Assembly: GCF_900411375.1 (NCBI RefSeq)
Contig: NZ_LS422998.1
Location: 1-64,000 of the forward strand
From: Lentilactobacillus raoultii
Lineage (GTDB): Bacteria; Bacillota; Bacilli; Lactobacillales; Lactobacillaceae
Direction of reading: 5' to 3'
DNA: 64,000 nucleotides
The notes under the pieces are model-generated. The model worked only from the letters and a program-made list of their open reading frames with translations, had not been told where the DNA came from and made no database searches. Position 1 is the stretch's first letter, and each line of letters starts with the position of its first letter. A program made the position numbers and the translations under genes. Shown in pieces: positions 2,276 to 57,751 of this stretch.

Positions 2276-4214
2276 TTAATGTTTATCCCACCAACGCCTA
2301 GTTTCTTTAATCCTCTCGATTCTTAAATTTGGTAGCCCATCTCGAGAAACGCCGTGCCATGATTGAGGATAACGTGACATTTCAGTTTCTACGCCGTTTT
2401 CGGCTAAAGCACTGAAAAATTCTTCACCCTGGCCAATAGGAGTTCTCGTATCCCATTCACCTTGCATAATAAGAGTGGGAGTCTTGACCTTATTTGCGTA
2501 TGCGATTGGTGAAAAATGCCAAAGTTTCTTTACATCATAGCGGTTAGTTAAAAGTTCTTGGGGGGGTAAACATAAAGCCAATATCACTGGTTCCAGAAAA
2601 GCTGATCCAATCTGTAACTGGGCGTTGGGCGACTGCTGCAGCAAATCGATCGGTGTGTCCAACAATCCACGTTGTCATAAAACCTCCATAAGAACCTCCT
2701 GCGCAATACTGACGTTTTGAATCGAATTCCGGGTGTTCTTTTAAGATATAATCCATTCCCTCTATCAGATCGGAAAAGTCCTTTTCTCCATACTTCCCAA
2801 CATTTTCTTGGCAAAATTCTTGCCCATAGGTTTTGCTGCCACGGGGATTTAAGAGCAACAAACCATAACCATTAGCAGCGTGTACTTGCATCTCGAAGAA
2901 AAAATTCTCAGCATAGGCAAAGTGTGGACCGCCATGTACGTAAAGAACTAAAGGATTCTTTTTTTGAGGCTCAAACGGCTCCATTAACCATCCCTCAATT
3001 GGAAGCCCATCGCTAGCTTCATAAACAAAACGCTTTGGTTTAACATATTGATGATTTTTATCAAACACTTCATTAGGATTAAATAGATTGACTTGCTTAC
3101 CATGGAGATCTAGGGTGGCTAATTCAACCGGATGAGTGGTTGTTGAGTAAGTAATTAATAAGTGATCACTATCTAAGATTGACCAATCGGTGATTCTTTC
3201 CGCTTCATTGAAAAATGGATTAACTTTATCATTAGTTCCTAAAAACATTTTCGAACGACCATGGTAGGAGGTTCGAAAAGCGAAACGTTGGTCATCTAAC
3301 CAGAATGCGTTATCACCATTTAAATTTTGAGTAAAGTCTGTGAATAGATAATCATGGGCATCTTCATCCAGGCCTTTCATGTAATCATTAAGGCTCCGCG
3401 AAAGAATGTCATAGCTATAAACATGAAATTGTGTATTTGCTTGATATTTATCTGAATGACCTACTAGTAGTAATTTTTTTCCATTTGGCGAAAATTTAGC
3501 TTCAGTGAAAACCCAGTTAGGATATTTTGAAGTGCACGCCGTTAATTTACCAAGTTCAACGTCAAGTAGTTTAACTCCTTGACCAAAACTTAGATCATTG
3601 TCGGGATCATTGTCCATTGTTAAGGCTAACCGATTTCCACTTGCGTCGACATCAGCAAGATTGAAGTTATTTTGGGATGAATAAATTAGTTGAGTTTTTT
3701 TAGCGTTGGGATTGTATAAAAACAATTTGTACACGCCATCTGTTGGATAGAAGCCGAAGCCGTCTGCTTTGTGATCGACTCGATAAATATGACGAACCGA
3801 GGGAAATTTTTTATACGGTTTCTTTGGAACCTCAGTAGTTTCTCGAGTTTTGAAAAAAACCAGATTTGTGGTTCTAGGCGCTACTAATTGTTCAACTGAA
3901 TGTGAGAGTGTTGAAACTTGTGTAATAGTATGATCGCTATAAGCCAGTTGATAAAGTTGAAAAGGTGACTTTTCGGTTTTTTTAGCAATGAAAAATAAAT
4001 AGTCTTTGGCAGGAGTGGGTGCTTTTGAAGAATAATCATTGTTATCAAAATTCCCAATGTATTTACCATTTCTATTGAACGCCAACAGATTGGAACGGTA
4101 ACCATTAGTGGGCTTGTCTAGATACGTTTGAGTAGCAACGAGATACTTTCCGGCAGCAACTGGCTGACTAAGCGTTTTTAATTTATAAAAGTCTTCTTCT
4201 GTTAATTTTTTCAT
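2276..4214 (-). pseudogene. S9 family prolyl oligopeptidase/acylaminoacyl peptidase, frameshifted
   Basis: Two overlapping frames together make a roughly 645-residue S9 peptidase: an N-terminal beta-propeller region (about 1-390) and an alpha/beta-hydrolase domain. The nucleophile Ser is in 'GGSYGG' (about residue 508) in the first frame; the Asp ('GEWDTRTP') and His ('SWHG') of the triad lie in the second frame, which ends at 2276. The frames join at a run of seven C on the coding strand (2560-2566): removing one C turns 'TPPRTFN-stop' into 'TPQELLTN', which restores the family sequence. So the gene is one base too long. It may be a true pseudogene, a phase-variable tract or an assembly error. 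The start at 4214 follows AAGGAG and lies 11 bases after the oppA-like stop, so import and hydrolysis of peptides were probably co-transcribed. Confidence 0.85.
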
Positions 4215-15672: not shown

Positions 15673-15744
15673 GACCCGTTGGTCAAGTGGTTAAGACACC
15701 GCCCTTTCACGGCGATAACATGGGTCCGAATCCCGTACGGGTCA
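15673..15744 (+). tRNA. tRNA-Glu (anticodon TTC)
   Basis: A 72-base cloverleaf: acceptor arms GACCCGT/ACGGGTC, anticodon loop CTTTCAC with TTC, and a T-arm with GGTCCGAATCC. CCA is not encoded. It lies 7 bases before tRNA-Gln, and both precede the gad-gltX cluster. Confidence 0.93.
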
Positions 15745-15751
15745 TTTTTAT

Positions 15752-15823
15752 TGGGTTGTAGCCAAGAGGTAAGGCAACGGGTTTTGATCCCGTGATGCGC
15801 TGGTTCGATCCCAGCTAACCCAA
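15752..15823 (+). tRNA. tRNA-Gln (anticodon TTG)
   Basis: Acceptor arms TGGGTTG/TAACCCA, D-arm with AGCCAAGAGGTAAGGC, anticodon loop TTTTGAT with TTG, and TTCGATC in the T-loop. CCA is not encoded. In lactobacilli this tRNA is first charged with glutamate and then amidated. Confidence 0.93.
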
Positions 15824-55429: not shown

Positions 55430-56851
55430 TTAGTTTGAATTTTGGGTAGCAACGGCTTGATTGCCGGCGTTTTCTTTTTCGGAATCCAGTCGTTTCAACC
55501 CGATGCCGGTAAATCCGCTCAGGAGCGAAAAGACTGGGCAAAGGAGACTGAAGAAGACAAATGGCAGGTAAGTCATCGTTGGAACACCTAACGTGTTGGC
55601 GATGAAGACACCGCCGACACCCCATGGTACTAAGTAGTTGAGGACGGTCCCCCCGTCTTCAAGAACCCGCCCCAGTGCGGCACTTGCCAAACCACCTTTG
55701 TTAAAGGTTTGTTTAAAAGCTCGTCCCGGTAGGATAATTGAGAGAAATTGTTCACCAACAAAGATATTAACGCCAATGCAGGCAAGCAGAGCAGCGGTAA
55801 TCAACTTAGCGGCACTGTTTAACTTGGAAGCCAATGGTGACATCACCGCGCTGATTAACCCAAAGTGGACCAGTAGCCCGCCTAGCGACAAGGTTAAGAC
55901 GATCAGGGCAACGGTTGGCATCATGCTGACAATGCCGCCACGGGATAGGAGTAAATTAACTTCGTGGTTGGATGTTTTGGCAACGAAACCATTTGTAATA
56001 ATATTGCTGGCTTTGGTGATGGTTAACTGAGGGTTGTTCATAAACATCATTCCCGCTGAAACAAAGATGTTTAGAAGCATAGTTGGAATAGCGGCCATTT
56101 TGAAAGCGGCACAAGCAAAAACCAACACAATTGGAATCAACGAAATAATTGAAATGTGAAAATCTTGATTAAGTGCCGTGACGGTTGTGGTGATTTTAGC
56201 CATGTCTGCGTGATTATGCCCCATCCCCAGGAGTGCAAAAGCAAGGGTTGAAATGGTCGCTGCTGGAAGAGTTGACCATAAAATGGTTTTCATATGATTA
56301 AATAAATCCGTGTCAACAACGGCCGCCGCCAGGTTATTGGTTTCGGATAACGGAGACAACTTATCGCCGAAAGTGCCGCCGGCAATAATGGCACCGGCAA
56401 CCAAGGCTGGATTGAAATTCATAGTGACGCCAATGCCAAAGAAGGCGATGCCTACGGTTGATACAACGGTAAAACAGCTACCGACTGCCGCACCAACTAG
56501 TGAGCACACCAGAAAAACGGTTGGCAGGAACCATTGTGCGCTAATGGCTTTAAAGCCAATCACCATCAGAGTTGGAATGGTACCGGCAGCGATCCAAGTA
56601 CTGATCATGGCACCAATTAAAATGAAAATGACGATTGGGATAATCCCTTTATCAATTCCATCTTTAATACCGGCGTTAATTGCCTGCCAATCAAAGCCCC
56701 GAACTTTAGCCCAGAAGATGGCGACGGTAATTGCCAAAAGGACTGGGACTTGTGGAGAAAGGCCAAAACCGATTACACCAATCCCCATAATTGCTAAAAT
56801 TACCATTAATACAAGTGCTGCTTCACCTAAACCTAATTTGTTTTTTGTCAT
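55430..56851 (-). CDS. NhaC-family carrier under Tyr T-box control (putative tyrosine transporter)
   Basis: The 473-residue protein has about eleven membrane helices and NhaC signatures, such as 'AGAIIAGGTFGDKLSPLSET' (about 167-186). NhaC proteins are Na+/H+ or malate/lactate antiporters, but T-box-controlled NhaC homologues in Firmicutes have been predicted to import tyrosine. The leader here is a full T-box with the tyrosine codon TAC in the specifier position, so I favour tyrosine transport over sodium export. CGAGGTT precedes the ATG. Confidence 0.85.
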   Translation of the reverse strand: MTKNKLGLGEAALVLMVILAIMGIGVIGFGLSPQVPVLLAITVAIFWAKVRGFDWQAINAGIKDGIDKGIIPIVIFILIGAMISTWIAAGTIPTLMVIGFKAISAQWFLPTVFLVCSLVGAAVGSCFTVVSTVGIAFFGIGVTMNFNPALVAGAIIAGGTFGDKLSPLSETNNLAAAVVDTDLFNHMKTILWSTLPAATISTLAFALLGMGHNHADMAKITTTVTALNQDFHISIISLIPIVLVFACAAFKMAAIPTMLLNIFVSAGMMFMNNPQLTITKASNIITNGFVAKTSNHEVNLLLSRGGIVSMMPTVALIVLTLSLGGLLVHFGLISAVMSPLASKLNSAAKLITAALLACIGVNIFVGEQFLSIILPGRAFKQTFNKGGLASAALGRVLEDGGTVLNYLVPWGVGGVFIANTLGVPTMTYLPFVFFSLLCPVFSLLSGFTGIGLKRLDSEKENAGNQAVATQNSN

Positions 56852-56974: not shown

Positions 56975-57205
56975 AAAAATCGTCCCGATTACAAATTACT
57001 GTAATCGGGACGATTTTTACCGTGGTACCACCCAACTTGCGTTTTAAAAAAGAAAACGCCGCTCACTAGAAGATAATGGCATCTAGTTATTGCCCATTGC
57101 CGATGATAGACGGTATTTCGTGAAACCTTACCCTGATCGGTTTGCAGCAACCACCGACTTCCTGACACCCAGATAAGGACCTACTTCAATGTCACTCGAC
57201 TTTAA
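56975..57205 (-). promoter_or_regulatory. T-box riboswitch leader, specifier TAC (Tyr)
   Basis: On the minus strand: Stem I with AGTA S-turn, apical AGGAAGTCGGTGG with CAAACCGA, and GAAA-TAC-C at the specifier loop (TAC at 57115-57113); T-box motif GGGTGGTACCACGG (57033-57020); then a perfect terminator stem ATCGTCCCGATTAC (56980-57014). Uncharged tRNA-Tyr should release termination and allow carrier expression. Confidence 0.9.
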
Positions 57206-57216
57206 ATATTGGGATA

Positions 57217-57245
57217 AGTATAGAACGTGTGGAGAAAAAAAGCAA
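57217..57245 (-). promoter_or_regulatory. Promoter of the Tyr T-box transcript
   Basis: On the minus strand TTGCTT, 17 bases, TATACT. The -35 touches the first unit of the hairpin array. Confidence 0.65.
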
Positions 57246-57364
57246 GTGAGTGGAGCAAAGCGGTTAGCACCCGGAGGATAAGGCGTCGATTGGGGAAATC
57301 CTGATTTTGGATTTTTCCGATCGATCCCTTATCCTCCGGGTGCTGCTTTGAGGAACTGTCCTAA
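57245..57364. repeat. Hairpin element, unit 1 of 4
   Basis: A 120-base imperfect palindrome. Nested arms: CAAAGC/GCTTTG, GCACCCGGAGGATAAGG with its perfect complement, TCGAT/ATCGA and GAAATCC/GGATTTT. Ends AGTGAGTGGA and ACTGTCCTAA. Confidence 0.9.
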
Positions 57365-57367
57365 GCG

Positions 57368-57488
57368 AGTGAGTGGATTCAAGCGGTTAAATGACGAAGA
57401 CCAAGGCGTTCATTTGTGAAAAGCCCGGTTTTGGCTTTTTGCGAATGAATCCCTTGGACGCAGTCATTTGCTTGAAGGAGCTGTCCTA
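57368..57488. repeat. Hairpin element, unit 2 of 4
   Basis: Same architecture with different arm sequences: TCAAGC/GCTTGA, ATGAC/GTCAT, CCAAGG/CCTTGG, TTCATT/AATGAA and AAAGCC/GGCTTT. Nearly identical to unit 4. Confidence 0.9.
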
Positions 57489-57493
57489 GGAAA

Positions 57494-57613
57494 AGTGAGC
57501 GGATCCAAGCGGTTAGACTCCGGAATGTAAGGCGTTAGATGGGGAAATCCTGGGCCTGGATTTTTTCATCTAATCCCTTACGTGCAGGGGTCTGCTTGGA
57601 GGAGCTGTCCTAA
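57494..57613. repeat. Hairpin element, unit 3 of 4
   Basis: Arms CCAAGC/GCTTGG, GTAAGG/CCTTAC, TTAGATG/CATCTAA and GAAATCC/GGATTTT; ends AGTGAGCGGA and GCTGTCCTAA as in the other units. Confidence 0.9.
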
Positions 57614-57617
57614 TAAC

Positions 57618-57739
57618 AGTGAGTGGATTCAAGTGGTTAAATGACGAAGACCAAGGCGTTCATTTGTGAAAAGCCCGGTTTTGGCTTTTTGCGAATGAAT
57701 CCCTTGGACGCAGTCATTTGCATGAAGAAACTGTCCTAA
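57618..57739. repeat. Hairpin element, unit 4 of 4
   Basis: Differs from unit 2 at only about four positions (including CAAGT for CAAGC and GCATGA for GCTTGA), so units 2 and 4 are recent duplicates flanking unit 3. Confidence 0.9.
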
Positions 57740-57751
57740 GAAAAGTGACCC

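Follow-up and report, generated by a model that had tools for sequence, protein, structure and literature searches.

A head-to-tail hairpin array in Lentilactobacillus raoultii as the probable site of a mobile, REP-like repeat family

Our analysis indicates that the array of four hairpin units at 57245..57739 of the window, that is, of the whole 64,000-nt stretch of Lentilactobacillus raoultii DNA that was analysed, is probably one of the sites occupied by a dispersed repeat family that is mobile and non-autonomous and resembles REP repeats; we put the probability of this reading at about 0.7. Members of the family are mostly intergenic, stand head-to-tail, are bounded by AGTG and TCCT and are separated by A-rich spacers of mostly 5-6 nt. 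If this reading is correct, industrially important lactic-acid bacteria would harbour a large family of repeats (~100 or more copies in several genomes), and the occupied and unoccupied sites, the nearly identical plasmid cassettes and the strong docking rule would provide a testbed for the movement of non-autonomous palindromic repeats. The family would also be a good case in which to separate selection on RNA structure from covariation left by template switching, a standing question.

The array and the extent of its family

The array consists of four head-to-tail units, each 120-122 nt long, followed by five bases of a fifth (Table 1). Their ends, order and boundaries are as claimed in the first-pass annotation of this DNA, and the duplication that it proposed for units 2 and 4 agrees with their identity (Table 1), that of units 1 and 3 being 74%. 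The complementary arms that it named are present, except that the outer helix of unit 4 (TCAAGT against GCATGA) is partly broken, as seen in both sequence and fold. Unit 1 is without the internal loop found in most other units. The array is flanked on one side by a Na+/H+ antiporter gene with a T-box leader and on the other by the 3′ end of an epimerase-like gene; both genes are encoded on the minus strand. The T-box leader (57003-57203, minus strand; 65.4 bits, E 1.6e-13, which is under the Rfam gathering score of 93) precedes the antiporter gene at 55430-56851. A candidate promoter of this leader, with what we take to be possible -35 and -10 boxes, overlaps the array by one base: read along the minus strand, the array ends on the T that opens the -35 box. 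At another locus, L085, a T-box (2693-2888, minus strand) and an array are arranged as in the window.

Table 1. Units of the array and features at its edges
Feature	Position in window	Strand	Evidence and remarks
Unit 1	57245..57364	+	covariance model, 123.9 bits; stem perfect, family's inner loop lost
Unit 2	57368..57489	+	covariance model, 120.6 bits
Unit 3	57494..57613	+	covariance model, 131.2 bits
Unit 4	57618..57739	+	covariance model, 118.1 bits; shares 96% identity with unit 2; outer helix broken in part
AGTGA, truncated start of a fifth unit	57744..57748	+	sequence; after spacer GAAA
Possible promoter of the antiporter leader	57217..57245	-	TTGCTT, 17 nt, TATACT; candidate, by eye

Units were located with nhmmer, and a covariance model was built on the 63 units of the first 30 loci from the L. 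raoultii genome. A blastn search of this genome gave 46 matches. The covariance model gave 117, nine of which are the opposite strand of hairpins already listed, leaving at least 108 places including the window's four; this is a lower bound from the best 150 of 1903 candidates. Taken with the sites described below that are filled in one sister species and empty in another, these places make a mobile palindromic unit of REP type the best supported of the three options that the first-pass annotation had offered. Among 60 relatives, the L. raoultii genome included, 20 were matched: 18 from the 24 genomes of the genus and a single one from each of two further genera. A genus-wide model was then built on 90 diverse units (89 of 127 representatives, 38 being left out by eye, plus one window unit). 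The search of Lactobacillaceae genomes that had been suggested for such a model gave matches in 145 of 397 genomes and 24 of 40 genera, under stricter filters and with the best nine candidates per genome scored. The weakest of these matches may be chance hairpins, which hardly applies to those below 1e-15. At least 150 matches were found in a single genome of another genus (G094).

A pattern search of named records returned 98 stretches, 96 of them in Lentilactobacillus; those in Dyadobacter and Pediococcus held no unit in a subsequent scan and look like chance. A phage collection was also searched and held no match to the units. Plasmids with units or fragments were found in L. plantarum, L. 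parabuchneri, L. reuteri, S. paracollinoides and L. brevis. In L. plantarum and L. parabuchneri, units lie on mobilizable plasmids that carry a cassette of LacI, MFS transporter and alpha-glucosidase genes (L228-L243), and one unit lies beside copper genes on an L. reuteri plasmid; such plasmids offer a possible route between genera. Genomes from several genera (among them G146, G183, G355, G372, G389 and G404) have equal matches of 118 nt and 86.5 bits, a sequence pattern which suggests a single recently spread copy, perhaps carried by a mobile element.

Placement at gene edges and turnover between relatives

Docking at gene edges was scored on 152 of 259 arrays (33 from L. raoultii and 119 from other species) using genes from a simple ORF finder. 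The scoring left out duplicate loci and any array that had no complete unit, stood less than 700 nt from a locus end or did not have genes on both sides; each orthologous site in a sister species counted as a site of its own. When the left gene points at the array, the left (AGTG) end lies at the stop codon (-6 to +10 nt) in 44 of 59 arrays (12/15 in L. raoultii and 32/44 elsewhere, against 1.6 and 8.3 expected under uniform placement). The right end does so in 9 of 72 (0/14 and 9/58). Where the left gene points away, the left end lies 10-30 nt from the start codon in 51 of 93 arrays; 50 of these are among the 75 from other species (9.9 expected under uniform placement) and one is among the 18 from L. 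raoultii. No right end was near a start codon in 80 cases (0/61 in other species, 0/19 in L. raoultii). Between the left end and the start codon there is usually a CCTCC-like complement of a Shine-Dalgarno site, as judged by eye. Of the ten L. raoultii arrays found 31-140 nt from the start codon of a left gene that points away, nine start 2-17 nt ahead of the best -35-like box, a count that has no null and includes some poor boxes. By eye, at least six arrays at four sites come after terminator-like hairpins with T-runs. A second genus has a stop codon 1-9 nt from the start of 12 of 15 arrays faced by their left gene, and four of its loci follow T-runs (by eye). Among 20 loci of a third genus, about seven follow T-runs (by eye) and four lie 17-28 nt before a start codon. 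Six arrays from other species lie inside a called ORF.

At two stop-codon sites the TGA comes from the unit itself and the protein end matches that of the ortholog (for one of them, L004 against L136). A native empty site reads AGTAA, like the start of a unit, so part of the fit may be due to likeness of the target. Docking as a result of left-flank erosion was considered, and empty sites in which the flank is kept argue against it.

The arrays are also polar. A 5′ fragment of a further unit follows the array in 29 of 33 cases in L. raoultii and 44 of 149 in others, and a unit end precedes it in 0 of 33 and 12 of 149; the shuffled rate for such flanking fragments is 2-4%. Of 242 spacers, measured from TCCT to the next AGTG, 186 are 5-6 nt long and 194 open with AA. 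Their sequences are similar to the left flank of the array, with 64 of 128 letters identical in L. raoultii (45 by permutation) and 233 of 380 in the others (165 by permutation), and 0 of 2000 permutations gave as high a likeness. Spacers also resemble one another beyond permutation. Exact target duplication was not borne out, since the flank copies beside units are alike and not identical.

Arrays were found to come and go between sister species, in comparisons of filled and empty sites made without ancestral-state reconstruction. A two-unit array and a single unit of L. dabitei are both missing in L. rapi, and at a third site the inner hairpin has been deleted in L. dabitei. A two-unit array of L. 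rapi is missing in L. dabitei. At two further L. rapi sites, L. fungorum and a genome taken as L. kisonensis (G003) have an empty site. The window's own site holds one unit and a fragment in L. farraginis (G019) and AGTGT alone in G018. Some of the filled and empty pairs could be losses, and no case was seen of an insertion that separates strains of a single species. A comparison was also made of eight near-identical plasmid cassettes, which come from seven records. Three of the eight are without one shortened unit, lost between direct repeats. In the second unit, compared in four cassettes, one has a 37-nt inner deletion, and two differ from the other two by a clustered replacement through which one arm comes to complement the other exactly.

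Fold, covariation and the strand that counts

Each unit had been described as one long hairpin, and all four folded better than every one of 200 dinucleotide shuffles on both strands, with 0 shuffles as good as native in any of the eight folds. The z scores for units 1-4 were -9.6, -5.9, -7.0 and -5.3 on the plus strand and -9.3, -5.6, -5.1 and -3.8 on the minus strand; in all four the plus-strand fold is the more stable. Among the 63 L. raoultii units, double changes are kept in 26 of 36 pairs and the covariation score was reached by 0 of 500 shuffles, which ignore the relatedness of units. Paired cells amount to 98.2%, compared with 82.5% after shuffling and 38-48% with slid partners, a control that favours the structure because the structure was derived from the same alignment. 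In the genus-wide set, 35 of 43 pairs have kept double changes and 86.5% of cells are paired, in an alignment whose inner helix is poorly aligned between subfamilies. The AGTG foot, a GGTTA bulge and the internal loops are constant, and the three foot pairs vary (AGC/GCT, AGT/ACT, AAC/GTT, TGC/GCA). The AAGG/CCTT pairing, thought constant, holds in the window's four units; across the genome its last pair is A-U in 10 of 63.

Mismatches in the stems are strongly asymmetric between strands. On the plus strand, G.U and A.C stand at 93:10 in the L. raoultii units (shuffled mean 207:134) and at 344:118 in 243 units of the other subfamily (897:696 shuffled), counts that omit pairs in which G.U is the majority. 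Since the complementary strand would show A.C in place of G.U, the folded plus strand is the form that counts, and its fold appears, from these sequence counts, to be under selection. Strand-biased deamination could be a contributor to the excess. Where both neighbouring genes are co-directional with the array the ratio is 46:3 for own-type units and 34:11 for others, and where both oppose it the ratio is 69:16 and 72:27, somewhat weaker for own-type units. Local transcription alone thus does not account for the excess. The option of a structured RNA accordingly draws support from the apparent selection on the plus-strand fold, with the qualification that the excess extends to arrays opposed by both flanking genes.

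These data bear on the view that the units are functional UTR elements, that is, transcribed hairpins which protect or process mRNA ends, with arrays kept for that purpose and mobility secondary. Several observations fit such a role: stop codons and Shine-Dalgarno sites adjoin left ends far more often than under uniform placement, G.U pairs are consistent with RNA, and REP repeats are credited with mRNA stabilisation (in the part of PMC3733652 available). Yet 103 of 296 classified units oppose both neighbours, so that the mRNA would be the other strand, and still have more G.U than A.C; array number and presence also vary between sister species. We consider this view unlikely as the primary explanation. 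A role as mRNA-end structure is possible within the mobile-repeat reading.

Somewhat less probable still is that the covariation is mainly mutational, with template switching in long DNA hairpins keeping the arms complementary and no structure being selected. Such switching between hairpin arms has been proposed in print (PMC8794818, available in part), the clustered replacement in the plasmid cassettes looks template-switch-like from its sequence, and perfect stems occur in unit 1 of the window and in the L176 unit. A symmetric DNA process, however, predicts equal G.U and A.C on the plus strand, against the excess observed. Correction would also erase both the G.U pair at columns 42/84, which is kept in 60 of 63 L. 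raoultii units, and the bulge and loops, which are still unpaired. The correction of an arm between near-identical plasmids nevertheless means that the covariation is not all due to RNA selection. Since template switching yields complementary arms and the stem of unit 1 is perfect, some compensatory changes may be single events. The earlier statement that compensatory change shows structure to be conserved was therefore too strong when taken alone, as arm-to-arm switching gives the same pattern.

Known repeats and the search for a mobilising enzyme

By behaviour, the units appear closest to REP repeats. Like REP and BIME sequences, they are high-copy palindromic intergenic repeats that form dimers and clusters near ORF 3′ ends at varying distance from the next ORF, with G-T pairs in the stems and an unpaired tag at one end that often supplies a stop codon. 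REP repeats, as described in the available part of PMC3733652, are palindromes of 20-40 bp with a GTAG or CGTC tag, many of them in opposite orientation (further REP and RAYT literature: PMC2817692 and PMC8266576, likewise in part). In contrast, our units are about 120 nt long with an AGTG foot (TAAGG-like or TGAGCG-like in other genera), and they also dock before Shine-Dalgarno sites and -35-like boxes. They stand head-to-tail where BIMEs alternate, with arrays defined as same-strand units joined within 60 nt; close opposite pairs (L174, L132) were seen too. Because length and tag, the lack of a RAYT in the L. raoultii genome and orientation all set the units apart, we would not file the family as REP.

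No match to the Y1 transposase domain (PF01797) was found in the L. raoultii genome. The domain is present in 7 of 24 genomes of the genus: 6 of the 16 that have at least 20 unit matches and one of the 8 that have no more than two. Elsewhere, 5 of 12 array-rich genomes have it. Many genomes with REP repeats can lose their RAYT (PMC3733652, in part), and loss of Y1 from L. raoultii is therefore possible. Reverse transcriptase (PF00078) occurs in 8 of 24 genomes of the genus, with one match in L. raoultii; the proportions, 5 of 16 genomes with at least 20 unit matches and 3 of 8 with two or fewer, give no association with unit abundance. SINE-like retrotransposition of the plus-strand RNA, which would give a precise 5′ end and a variable 3′ end in accord with the polarity of the arrays and with left ends that by eye follow terminator T-runs (RNA 3′ ends), is improbable given that missing association, the absence of reverse transcriptase from 11 of 16 genomes with at least 20 units, and 5′ fragments that are much rarer outside L. 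raoultii and may be due to later deletion. With ter assumed opposite ori, no replication-strand bias was seen in G094, where 45 of 99 arrays are co-directional (118 of the best 150 matches); in G005, 10 of 14 are (15 of its 84 matches).

For a mobile, REP-like family, we infer that the folded single plus strand, as ssDNA or RNA, would be recognised by an enzyme still to be found or since lost. A unit would then insert at the edge of a gene, its AGTG end facing the stop codon, Shine-Dalgarno site, -35 box or terminator there. More units would be added or copied by recombination, and units would be lost through deletion between repeats or inside the hairpin. A bolder and rather doubtful extension is that these are Lactobacillaceae-wide bacterial short interspersed elements that move as a folded single strand and whose insertion is purposely targeted to the edges of genes, at stop codons, ribosome sites, promoters and terminator ends, by machinery that is neither RAYT nor a standard reverse transcriptase. 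To our knowledge, there is no case of safe-harbour targeting of this kind for repeats of this size.

The first-pass annotation did not recognise the family. No Rfam 15 covariance model scored above its gathering cut-off on the units, and the miRNA-like matches fell far below. The Rfam scan also marked an adjacent pair of tRNA genes at 15673-15823 (plus strand) of the window. No description of the family was found in the literature covered, which lay outside subscription papers and preprints. The Lactobacillales RNA motifs of Weinberg and colleagues are likewise RNA-like, found by covariation and from the same order; no motif of that set present in Rfam 15 fits the units, and Lacto-int has no Rfam number (PMC2864571, in part). 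Among stem-loop repeats of Firmicutes, Bcr1 and Efa-1 are likewise intergenic, structured and partly of similar size, as compared by description only; Bcr1 is 167 nt long, and the genomes of that study included Lactobacillus johnsonii (PMC2267715, in part). Set against MITEs, which have terminal inverted repeats, an exact target duplication and a related autonomous transposon, the units have hairpin ends that pair and flank copies that are alike and not identical.

An intrinsic terminator or attenuator was rejected on reading the sequence, since the units end in CTGTCCTA and no T-run follows them in the window; this, together with the genome-wide spread of the family, also disposes of the suggested termination module after the SDR gene. 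Variants of the unit were seen in a few relatives. The L073 unit (G015) has a nearly perfect stem with different ends (GGGCCAGCAAGC...GCTTGCTGGCCCACGTTTTT) and a terminator-like look. L065 and L069 each have one unit with an extra internal-loop insert of about 33 nt (CGCCAAGTAGGCTAGGC...GGCCGTCGG), which is nearly the same in the two species and is possibly an extra domain.
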